Of a stretch of DNA of 64,000 nucleotides, positions 46,854 to 49,829 are shown piece by piece (position 1 is the first letter of the stretch; the number at the start of each line of letters is the position of its first letter). The notes beneath the pieces were generated by a model that saw nothing but the letters and a program-made list of their open reading frames with translations, had not been told where the DNA came from and did no database searches. The position numbers and the translations under genes are program-made. The DNA is from Pedobacter sp. SYSU D00535 (lineage in GTDB: Bacteria > Bacteroidota > Bacteroidia > Sphingobacteriales > Sphingobacteriaceae): NCBI RefSeq assembly GCF_017355855.1, contig NZ_JAFEWD010000013.1:62001-126000 (forward strand), written 5' to 3'.

Positions 46854-47435
46854 CTAGTCCAGAACAGACAAAGCAAGTTCGACGGTAGCAGATAAGGAAG
46901 CTTTGGTAGGGTTTACTTTTGACGAGACTTTCAGGCCGTTGAAGAACGTAACCAGATAGGCGGCAGTAGCCTGGATATCTTTACTGCTGTTAATCTCCCC
47001 TGATTCTTGACCTCGTTTCAAATACTCAGTCAAAATGGCTTCAAAGTTTACTTTATTCAGGGATAGAAGGCTTCCAATTTCCTCGTCGCTAGGCATCAGT
47101 TCTGTTGAGGTATTTACCACCAGGCAGCCTTTGCGCTCAGGGTCCGCAACTGCCTGCTCAATAGCTATGCTAAACAAGGTCCGGATACCTTCCTTTACCG
47201 AGGAGGAGGTGCTAAGTAGCGCGTTCAGCGCCCGGGTGTTTTCCTCGACGTATCTACTGACGGCTTTTTGAAACAGCTGCTTCTTGCCTCCGAACGTATC
47301 ATACAAGCTGGCTCTGTTGATACCCAGGTGCTTAACTATATCATCAATCGAAGTTGCATTGTAGCCCTGGCACCAGAAAATGTGTACCGCTTTCTGCAAT
47401 ACTTCGTCCTCGTCGAATTGCTTATTTCTTGCCAT
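46854..47435 (-). CDS. TetR/AcrR-family transcriptional repressor
   Basis: This 193-residue DNA-binding repressor has an N-terminal helix-turn-helix (about 8-50): DEDEVLQKAVHIFWCQGYNA, SIDDIVKHLGINRASLYDTF, GGKKQLFQKAV. The C-terminal ligand domain resembles the YdhM/NemR group that responds to electrophiles or quinones (ERKGCLVVNTSTELMPSDEE, with a Cys in GCLVVN). It is cotranscribed or closely spaced with the SDR gene upstream (48 bases apart, same strand). It likely binds the duplicated palindromes at 48240-48284, so it would repress the SDR and, by readthrough, itself. Confidence 0.93.
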   Translation of the reverse strand: MARNKQFDEDEVLQKAVHIFWCQGYNATSIDDIVKHLGINRASLYDTFGGKKQLFQKAVSRYVEENTRALNALLSTSSSVKEGIRTLFSIAIEQAVADPERKGCLVVNTSTELMPSDEEIGSLLSLNKVNFEAILTEYLKRGQESGEINSSKDIQATAAYLVTFFNGLKVSSKVNPTKASLSATVELALSVLD

Positions 47436-47483
47436 TCCGCTCCTGTAAATGTCTCAAAAATACACTTTAGAACTATAAGTGCA

Positions 47484-48233
47484 TCAGGTTTTAATGAGCA
47501 TCCCACCATCAATATTAAACTCGCCCCCCGTTATGAAGCTGGCAGAACTGGAAGCAAGGAAGGTCACTAATTCAGCTATGTCCGTTGGCTCTCCCAGTTT
47601 ACCGAGGGGGATTTGAGATTTTGCATGATCTTTTATAAGTGCGGTCTGCTCCTCAGGAAAACCGAGTTTCTGAAAGATAGGCGTACTTGTTGGTCCGGGA
47701 TTAACAGCGTTGATTCGTATATTCCTTTTCGAAAGCTCGATAGCGGCGGTTCTCACGTAACTGTTCAGGGCGGCCTTCGATGCTGAATAAATAGCCAAAT
47801 TGGGTGATCCGGTGTATGCAGCGATAGAAGATAGAGCAATTATTGCCGCTCCATCTTTTAAAACTGGTAGAAATTTTTCGGTAGTGAACACAGCGCCTTT
47901 AAAATTGATATCCATTAGGTCGTCGAAGTTTTGCTCGCTAATTGCACCTACCGGTTCAAGCACGAAAATTCCCGCATTTACAAACAATACATCAACCTGT
48001 CCATAGGCTCCCTGCACCTGTTCTACAAGGCTGTCCAGTTGCGAAAGGTCGGCCACATCCGCGACCACACCATTAACTCCCAATTTGGAGGCTGCCTCCT
48101 CAACCTTCTCGGCAGAGCGTCCTGTAATAATAACCTGGGCGCCTTGCTCCTTAAACGCCTTGGCCGTTGCGAACCCGATGCCGCTATTGCCACCTGTGAT
48201 AACTACGGTTTGTCCTTGAAATCTTTTCATCAT
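47484..48233 (-). CDS. Short-chain dehydrogenase/reductase (classical SDR)
   Basis: This NAD(P)-dependent oxidoreductase has 249 residues from ATG 48233. Motifs are VVITGGNSGIGFATAKAF (dinucleotide site), VDVLFVNAGIF, IIALSSIAAYTG (catalytic Ser), YSASKAALNSYVRTAA (Tyr and Lys) and a C-terminal ASFITGGEFNIDGGM. I reject the longer start at 48284, because those extra codons read straight through both operator palindromes. It is probably controlled by the TetR protein encoded next to it, a common pairing in this phylum. Substrate unknown, perhaps a quinone or aldehyde. Confidence 0.94.
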   Translation of the reverse strand: MMKRFQGQTVVITGGNSGIGFATAKAFKEQGAQVIITGRSAEKVEEAASKLGVNGVVADVADLSQLDSLVEQVQGAYGQVDVLFVNAGIFVLEPVGAISEQNFDDLMDINFKGAVFTTEKFLPVLKDGAAIIALSSIAAYTGSPNLAIYSASKAALNSYVRTAAIELSKRNIRINAVNPGPTSTPIFQKLGFPEEQTALIKDHAKSQIPLGKLGEPTDIAELVTFLASSSASFITGGEFNIDGGMLIKT

Positions 48234-48239
48234 GTAATA

Positions 48240-48284
48240 TTGGAATGATTGTTCCAAAAGTACAAATTGGAATGATTGTTCCAA
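48240..48284. promoter_or_regulatory. Tandem palindromic operator, probable TetR binding sites
   Basis: The 18-base sequence TTGGAATGATTGTTCCAA occurs twice, identically, at 48240-48257 and 48267-48284, with centres 27 bases apart. The outer six bases of each copy are a perfect inverted repeat (TTGGAA and TTCCAA). The pair lies just upstream of the SDR start at 48233, where a repressor would block transcription. The TetR encoded at 46854 is the obvious candidate. Confidence 0.8.
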
Positions 48285-48399
48285 AATTATTTCGCCTTAT
48301 TTATGATATAGGAGAACCTAATGAAAGAGATAGAGTGAAGACATCAGGTGAGCAACGATGTTATTACACATCATTCTCCGACGATACTTTCTCATTTTA

Positions 48400-48407
48400 T
48401 AAATTTG
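48400..48407 (+). promoter_or_regulatory. Candidate -7 promoter element of the GH28 gene
   Basis: TAAATTTG matches the Bacteroidota -7 consensus TAnnTTTG and lies 64 bases before the ATG at 48471. No clear -33 TTTG is seen at the right distance, so this is weak. Confidence 0.3.
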
Positions 48408-48470
48408 GCCGATATTTAGCAACGGAATTAAAAATATTCCTTAACCAATTTAGACAAGAAGAAGAACTTA

Positions 48471-49829
48471 ATGATTACGCAAAAACTGAGGCTTGCACTG
48501 CTGCTTATTGTTTCCATTACGCTGAACTTTACAGCTTTGGCAAAGGAAGTATTTCCGGATGGAACACCGATACCAGAATGGTTCCGCCAAAACAAACCGA
48601 CGGACATCAACAAATTGGGGAAACACTACCGGATCACAGATTTCAACGTTGTTAACGACAGTACCGTTATCCAGACGAAACTTCTGCAGGCTGTGATCGA
48701 CAGAGCGCATGAGAACGGCGGTGGCGTAGTGATTATTCCAAAAGGAACTTTTCTTAGCGGCTCGCTGTTTTTCAAAAAGGGTACGCATTTGCATCTGGAA
48801 GAAGGCGGCCGTCTGAAAGGCAGCGATGATATCAGCAACTTTCCCCTGGTGATGACGCGTATGGAGGGGCAAACCCTGAAATACTTTGCTGCACTGGTAA
48901 ATGCGGATGGCCTTGACGGCTTTACAATATCCGGCAAAGGAACTATTGATGGCAATGGACTGCGCTACTGGAGGTCTTTCTGGCTTAGACGCGCTTTTAA
49001 TCCAAATTGTACTAATATGGATGAGATGAGACCCAGGCTTGTGTATATATCCAATTGTAAAAATGTTCAGCTTTCGGGAGTGAGGTTGATAAACTCCCCA
49101 TTTTGGACTACACATTTGTATAAATCAGAAAATGTAAAGCTCTTGGACCTGTACATTTACTCGCCTAAAGAACCCGTAAAAGCTCCGAGTACGGACGCTG
49201 TTGATATTGATGCCTGTAAGAATGTTCTGATTAAAAACTGCTATATGTCTGTAAACGATGACGCTGTAGCGCTTAAAGGCGGTAAAGGTCCTCGTGCCGA
49301 TAAGGATCCTAATAACGGAGCTAATCATAATATTATCATTGAAGACTGCACTTATGGATTCTGTCATGGTGCGCTGACTTTCGGAAGTGAGTCGCTCCAC
49401 GATCGCAATATTATTCTGAGACGCATCAAAGTGAACCATGCGGAGCGCCTGCTTTGGCTGAAGATGCGGCCGGACACTCCTCAAAATTACGAGTATGTGT
49501 TGGTAGAAGACATCGAAGGCCACGATATTGGCAACTTCATTTTCATTCGGCCCTGGACCCAGTTCTTCGACCTGAAAGGAGAGGAAGTATCAGGAACATC
49601 AACAAGTCACCATATTACTATGCGTAATATAAAGTTGGATTGCGAAAACTTTTTTAACGTGGGAGCGGCGAAAGAAGTCAAGCCTTCTAAAGGCTTCGGT
49701 TACAAGTTATCAGACTTTAGGTTCGAGAACATCGACGTGACGGCGAAAAAGTTTGTAGATATAAACACGTCTATTATAGATAACTTCCAACTAAAGAACG
49801 TGGTTGTGAACAAGAAGAAAGTCTTCTAG
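48471..49829 (+). CDS. GH28 polygalacturonase-like pectin hydrolase, secreted
   Basis: This enzyme probably hydrolyses galacturonan or rhamnogalacturonan. It has 452 residues with a signal peptide (cleavage near TALAK). The right-handed beta-helix carries the GH28 catalytic set: Asp242 in PSTDAVDID, Asp263/Asp264 in SVNDDAVALKGG, His299 in FCHGALTFGSE and a basic WLKMRP segment. The usual NTD is STD here and the usual RIK is KMR, so the substrate is probably not plain polygalacturonan. The N-terminal part contains VIIPKGTFLSGSLFFKKGTH, typical of the family. It is a single gene followed by a terminator. Confidence 0.92.
   Translation: MITQKLRLALLLIVSITLNFTALAKEVFPDGTPIPEWFRQNKPTDINKLGKHYRITDFNVVNDSTVIQTKLLQAVIDRAHENGGGVVIIPKGTFLSGSLFFKKGTHLHLEEGGRLKGSDDISNFPLVMTRMEGQTLKYFAALVNADGLDGFTISGKGTIDGNGLRYWRSFWLRRAFNPNCTNMDEMRPRLVYISNCKNVQLSGVRLINSPFWTTHLYKSENVKLLDLYIYSPKEPVKAPSTDAVDIDACKNVLIKNCYMSVNDDAVALKGGKGPRADKDPNNGANHNIIIEDCTYGFCHGALTFGSESLHDRNIILRRIKVNHAERLLWLKMRPDTPQNYEYVLVEDIEGHDIGNFIFIRPWTQFFDLKGEEVSGTSTSHHITMRNIKLDCENFFNVGAAKEVKPSKGFGYKLSDFRFENIDVTAKKFVDINTSIIDNFQLKNVVVNKKKVF

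Follow-up and report, generated by a model that had tools for sequence, protein, structure and literature searches.

In this study, two identical copies of an 18-base palindrome were found at the candidate promoter of a two-gene unit encoding a short-chain dehydrogenase/reductase (SDR) and a TetR-family regulator. Judged by their recurrence in related loci, they very probably represent operators, O1 and O2, of the TetR encoded by the same unit, each taking one dimer, which would occlude its own promoter until an inducer releases it. The window, that is, the whole stretch of 64,000 nucleotides analysed, holds just two exact copies of TTGGAATGATTGTTCCAA, one at 48240-48257 and the other at 48267-48284, their centres 27 bp apart, and the two identical 18-mers described in an earlier sequence-only reading of this DNA are therefore really there. 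On the minus strand, which is the coding strand of the operon, each copy reads TTGGAACAATCATTCCAA, an imperfect palindrome with 6-bp arms, TTGGAA and TTCCAA, flanking six bases. The likeness of the copies goes slightly beyond the 18-mer, as they agree at 24 of 26 positions from five bases before it to three bases after it on the minus strand, and poorly farther out. The features concerned are as follows.

48282-48289, minus strand: second TAnnTTTG-like box, TAATTTTG, before the distal copy and overlapping the -33 TTTG
48267-48284, minus strand: distal operator copy, O1, farther from the SDR gene; a -33-like TTTG includes its first TTG (48284-48282), and paired sites occur in relatives
48255-48262, minus strand: putative -7 box of the Bacteroidota type, TACTTTTG, lying 19 bases downstream of the distal copy's TTG
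48240-48257, minus strand: proximal operator copy, O2, 6 bp before the SDR ATG, overlapping the last bases of the -7 box as well as the expected transcription start
47484-48233, minus strand: SDR-family oxidoreductase, first gene, 249 aa, with ATG at 48233, a second ATG at 48230 and the stop codon at 47486-47484
47455-47462, minus strand: TAnnTTTG box TATTTTTG in the 48-bp gap between SDR and tetR, a consensus match with no operator beside it
46854-47435, minus strand: TetR-family repressor, second gene, 193 aa, CifR-like, with Cys104 invariant in aligned relatives

Throughout the 4.89-Mb genome, this pair comprises the only exact copies of TTGGAATGATTGTTCCAA, and the next best matches listed have three mismatches. 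When up to three mismatches were allowed in the window, the two copies were again the sole matches, while 100 dinucleotide shuffles gave a mean of 0.06 and in no case (0/100) two matches. Tandem Repeats Finder reported no array at the paired palindromes. The core GGAAYRNNYRTTCC, searched without mismatches, occurs at 10 places in the genome compared with 5 for the reversed pattern, and because of the latter count the eight places outside this locus were not taken as a further regulon.

Read along the minus strand, the sites come first, followed by the SDR, a 48-bp gap and tetR, and the two genes probably form an autoregulated operon, with two like palindromes over a promoter that is assigned by consensus. 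The sequence-only reading had put the sites next to the TetR gene; it is the SDR gene that lies between them, and tetR comes second in the operon. Scoring above the Pfam cut-offs of adh_short and adh_short_C2, the SDR belongs to the classical short-chain dehydrogenases, and the alcohol dehydrogenase entries 4bmn and 4bms are among its best matches of known structure. It is noted that tetR may also possess its own promoter, at TATTTTTG. With respect to the SDR start, the proposed position 48233 is still the best, but the argument offered for it, a longer ATG, has to be given up, since no in-frame ATG exists upstream of 48233 back to the stop at 48299. The only ATG, GTG or TTG codons in that frame are TTG 48257 and TTG 48284, which are the first codons of the two sites. 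The start at 48233 is preferred because it is an ATG, with the second one following at 48230, because homologous SDRs align from there, and because the -7 box ends at 48255, which by consensus would place the transcription start near 48250.

To describe the conservation of the sites, we gathered 110 related tetR loci, our own included, of which 30 came from one search (30 of its 42 matches, the best being taken first and one for each genome) and 80 from an alignment query (the best 80 of at least 502 confirmed matches); both sets were chosen as closest to this TetR and are biased to near relatives rather than a random sample. Twenty loci were dropped, comprising 16 without an SDR match, three in which over 400 bp separate the SDR from tetR and one with another strand or order, leaving 90 with a same-strand SDR directly before tetR and, after removal of one duplicate, 89 distinct loci including our own. 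A pair was defined as two GGAAYnnnnRTTCC cores 22-45 bp apart upstream of the SDR, each with at most two mismatches in its 10 core positions. Such pairs were detected in 68 of the 89 loci, compared with a mean of 0.25/89 in shuffled upstream DNA and 2/89 in SDR gene bodies; at no more than one mismatch the count was 60/89, against a mean of 0 in 20 shuffles and 0/89 in gene bodies. At least one site was present in 86/89 loci at two mismatches (13.45/89 in shuffles) and in 85/89 at one mismatch (1.05/89 in shuffles). Leaving out this locus, a pair lies in the same place in 67 of the 88 other distinct loci, which bears out the suggestion of a TetR-type operator, and two dimers, as also suggested before, would be the simplest reading of paired sites. 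The pair accompanies tetR even where the SDR is only about 30% identical, and it is also present in L064 and L070, in which tblastn finds no SDR. A further site is found in the SDR-tetR gap in 43/89 loci; the gap of our own locus harbors no operator.

The spacings of the 68 pairs were 27 bp (1, this locus), 30 (1), 31 (1), 32 (6), 33 (21), 34 (16), 35 (17) and 36 (5). In three-site loci the pair chosen depends on the rule, so a few spacings are open to choice: another pairing rule with longer upstream DNA gave 33 instead of 35 in L025 and 33 instead of 36 in L096, along with 32 in L040, 30 in L068 and 37 in L087, and 27 in none. Genome searches gave a comparable picture. Across 395 genomes of the class at E 1e-48, the nearest tetR was found in four other genomes, all four with two sites 33-34 bp apart, and no tetR orthologs were detected in two other genomes of the genus at E 1e-25. 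When the two sites were searched as one pattern, with the gap fixed at 9 bp and no more than three mismatches, our own was the only one of 395 genomes of the phylum to match, the spacings of the relatives being different. A query of genome contigs with the single TetR confirmed no relative, but the alignment query did find relatives.

The 21 of 88 other loci without a pair comprise 18 with at least one site (two mismatches allowed) and three without any (L011, L012 and L020). In L012 the tetR match contains three internal stop codons and no operator-like site lies upstream, as expected for a decayed copy. Fourteen of the 21 are titled Flavobacterium and have one site before the SDR, namely L087 and the 13 loci L095, L097, L098, L102-L104, L110, L111, L113, L114 and L116-L118. 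We also observed that these 13 display a perfect palindrome, ACGGAACGATCGTTCCGT, before the SDR, about five bases before a TATCTTTG box, with another site before tetR. L021 and L115 carry a variant palindrome of the GAAAY/GTTTC type upstream of the SDR, possibly indicating a shifted operator specificity. A search of six odd loci for palindromes with exact 7-bp arms found none, and a comparison of recognition-helix letters with operator type was set aside, too few cases being different. As a separate observation, six loci labelled as other phyla (L039, labelled as a Sphingopyxis MAG, and L045, L069, L070, L079 and L080) carry this SDR-tetR type or its tetR; L039 is likely a misbinned contig, as it forms a short branch inside a mostly Flavobacteriaceae clade.

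The promoter elements at this locus were identified as consensus matches. For Bacteroidota, the consensus described in the excerpted text of PMC7366714 consists of TTTG near -33 and TAnnTTTG near -7, and according to the same excerpt no -33 motif was detected in Flavobacterium johnsoniae. Here, TTTG at 48285-48282 is followed after 19 bases by TACTTTTG at 48262-48255, in agreement with a primary-sigma promoter, and the first TTG of each palindrome belongs to a box of this TTTG-N19-TACTTTTG arrangement. As the TTG of the -33 element and the TTG ending the -7 box are each the first three bases of a site, the operators and the boxes are spaced alike, at 27 bp. Of the 68 pairs, 54 (53/67 without this locus) have a TAnnTTTG box between their two sites, with its last G falling anywhere from five bases before the proximal site to the third base of that site, and in 32 of the 54 the first TTG of the distal site is the TTG located 17-23 bases from the box. 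So in the commonest design O1 appears to cover the -33 element and O2 the start, with the -7 box between them, and this locus would be a compressed version of it. The conserved pair together with its -7 box strongly supports the palindromes as predicted operators of this TetR. Mechanistically, one repressor dimer would sit on O1 (48267-48284), covering the -33 region, and one on O2 (48240-48257), across the last bases of the -7 box and the transcription start. The bound repressor would then exclude RNA polymerase and keep SDR and tetR expression low by autoregulation, until it is freed from the DNA by a small molecule, for which an electrophile or an SDR substrate is the likeliest candidate.

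Comparatively, this locus is an outlier among the 68 pairs, being the only one with a 27-bp spacing and the only one with identical copies; those of the others differ at 1-10 of 18 positions, most often at five. Its proximal site also lies closest to the ATG, at 6 bp compared with 9-67 bp elsewhere. Identity by independent drift was estimated at about 0.0004-0.001 per pair, or 0.03-0.07 over 68 pairs, figures taken from 35 of the 67 other pairs, which were typed by hand and are not a random draw. The identity of the copies favours local duplication over independent drift, though it does not prove it, and the pair is probably a compact form of the ancestral 30-36-bp pair that originated when a 27-bp unit was duplicated locally. 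With 30-36-bp pairs present on each main side of the midpoint-rooted TetR tree (112 rows), the 27-bp form seems to be derived. In this tree, our TetR row lies outside a supported clade of 52 rows (100/98) that holds all 28 other rows of the same family, and groups among Flavobacteriaceae, Saprospiraceae and other rows in a poorly resolved part. In that part, the SDR shares 59-66% identity with our own at many loci, most of them from Flavobacteriaceae or MAG records. The tree position and the SDR identities fit a horizontal transfer, which may have brought the unit into this genome. The assignment of this DNA to Sphingobacteriaceae was drawn from a single locus of its family, L010, which over 3 kb shares 87% identity with Pedobacter fastidiosus (L107).

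On B-DNA, 27 bp would correspond to about 2.6 turns, which would place the two dimers on roughly opposite faces, while the 30-36 bp of the relatives would amount to about 2.9-3.4 turns; direct contact between dimers would therefore be less likely here than in the relatives, and the tight switching put forward in the sequence-only reading is a conjecture for this pair. With some hesitation, we propose a repeated fusion of promoter and operator, in which the TTG that opens the operator also ends a sigma-factor box. The 27-bp spacing would then be set by the distance between -33 and -7 and not by dimer contact, and a local 27-bp duplication would have replaced the ancestral 30-36-bp pair, moving the dimers about half a helical turn apart.

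The same observations bear on a somewhat more doubtful explanation, namely that two promoter-operator modules were duplicated as tandem promoters, TAATTTTG and TACTTTTG, each shut by one dimer at its own start. A TAnnTTTG sequence does precede both copies, the likeness of the copies extends into their flanks, no other pair among the 68 has identical copies, and the low drift estimate points the same way; TAATTTTG could indeed be a duplicated -7 box. However, since the TTG is shared by operator and box, a TAnnTTTG before each copy needs few extra bases. The distal TTTG, at its 19-base spacing, suits a -33 element as well, and the absence of an array reported by Tandem Repeats Finder also speaks against the tandem modules.

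That the palindromes serve another regulator and not the product of the adjacent tetR is improbable. Nothing specific points to one, though 11 candidate TetR stretches were noticed in this genome, so other TetR-type genes may exist; only this TetR among the 11 passed E 1e-30. Moreover, in many Bacteroidota records the sites occur alongside genes related to this tetR, even at loci whose SDRs differ markedly, and the frequent additional site in the gap directly before tetR argues in the same direction. Still less credible, to a degree that makes it negligible in our judgement, is that the sites have no regulatory function and simply belong to the coding frame of the SDR or repeat by chance. No stop codon interrupts the frame that runs from TTG 48284 across the two copies into the SDR, 27 is a multiple of three, and an open frame through both sites is displayed by 15 of the 67 other pairs as well. 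Nevertheless, a TTG start would lie upstream of the expected transcription start, an in-frame stop occurs between the distal site and the SDR start in 52 of the 68 pairs, and the spacings of 31, 32, 34 and 35 bp among relatives obey no frame rule, while a chance repeat is contradicted by conservation far above that of shuffles. We therefore retain the operators of the operon-encoded TetR as the preferred reading.

The regulator itself is consistent with this reading. Its N-terminal helix-turn-helix domain was recognized by PF00440 with 49.4 bits (cut-off 24) and its C-terminal part by TetR_C_13 with 30.0 bits (cut-off 27); assignment to AcuR (NF051457) was rejected, the score being 55.4 bits against a curated cut-off of 247. 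An AlphaFold2 model (pLDDT 92.6) displays the all-helical TetR fold, and the 50 fold matches shown, all with Z above 16, are annotated almost without exception as TetR-type regulators. By sequence, the nearest protein of known structure is CifR (E 3.6e-24, about 29% identity), and the model most resembles CifR entries in complex with a 26-bp operator, with TM 0.85-0.87 for five of the six chains listed; the best fold alignment with CifR gave Z 21.5 (range 21.4-21.5), rmsd 2.6 and 192 aligned residues. CifR structure entries exist with and without C107S, and Cys104 of our TetR aligns with C107 and is invariant in 29/29 and 45/45 aligned rows. Thus, among solved structures, sequence and fold are both closest to CifR and the C107-equivalent cysteine is present. 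The other expectation for a CifR ortholog, an adjacent Cif-type epoxide hydrolase operon, is not borne out, as the partner is the SDR, with a GH28 gene beyond the operators. The invariant cysteine fits electrophile sensing, which it may serve in this protein, though it does not show it. From the kinship with CifR and the invariant Cys104, electrophiles in general, and epoxides first, would be reasonable inducer candidates, while the quinones and aldehydes named in the sequence-only reading are a guess.

With reference to known systems, CifR reportedly uses two binding sites, as a paper title has it. CifR differs from our TetR in its partner, an epoxide hydrolase operon with divergent genes, instead of an SDR in a same-strand operon. 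In Pseudomonas aeruginosa, CifR represses an operon and is released from DNA by certain epoxides, according to the excerpt of PMC8244358. The Tn10 TetR, as far as the excerpts of PMC9736018 and PMC3511530 describe it, acts at tetO1 and tetO2, two 15-bp operators with 11 bp between them. It thereby resembles our locus in having two palindromic operators in one control region, and differs in its divergent tetA/tetR genes, in the length (15 bp) and sequence of its operators, and in having a drug as ligand and efflux as target. For SCO7222 of Streptomyces coelicolor, the excerpt of PMC3511530 gives three operators with half-sites TGGAACG/CGTTCCA inside the footprints, which are close to the TGGAAC/TTCCA arms found here when the operators are compared; on the same excerpt, it is unlike our locus in having three copies, arms one base closer and a divergent monooxygenase gene. 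NemR of Escherichia coli has a fold close to that of our TetR (4yze, Z 20.4), with an identity of only 17-19%. It is a cysteine-based sensor of electrophiles and hypochlorous acid, and its operator and targets differ from those of this locus. The title of entry 6zui names a hypochlorous acid biosensor of this TetR fold.

Double operators are textbook for TetR itself, to go by the excerpted sources, so this kind of arrangement is already known. What the analysis contributes is a conserved operator for the CifR-like group and a compact variant of it at an unusual spacing. Searches of the open-licence literature on such operators found, among the papers listed, none describing an operator of the GGAAYnnnnRTTCC type, and the operator letter strings gave no match in open-licence papers. 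This study provides a testable operator core, GGAAYnnnnRTTCC, mostly paired, for CifR-like repressors, most records being Bacteroidota. The natural range of spacings, 27 and then 30-36 bp, gives a means of examining whether two TetR-type dimers must share a face of the DNA, and the locus suggests an inducible promoter for Bacteroidota.

The gene that diverges from the operon, starting at 48471, encodes a GH28 protein scoring above the NCBIfam cut-off for BT4153 rhamnogalacturonidase, and it has a box of its own.

48400-48407, plus strand: TAnnTTTG box TAAATTTG upstream of the GH28 gene, about 115 bp from the operators

Owing to this separate box and its distance from the sites, direct repression of the GH28 gene by the TetR is unlikely. 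In the same region, a near-repeat, AGGAGAACCTAATGA and AGAAGAACTTAATGA, was noticed on the plus strand at 48310-48324 and 48460-48474; both look like a ribosome site with a start codon, the first leading into a very short frame and the second into the GH28 gene.
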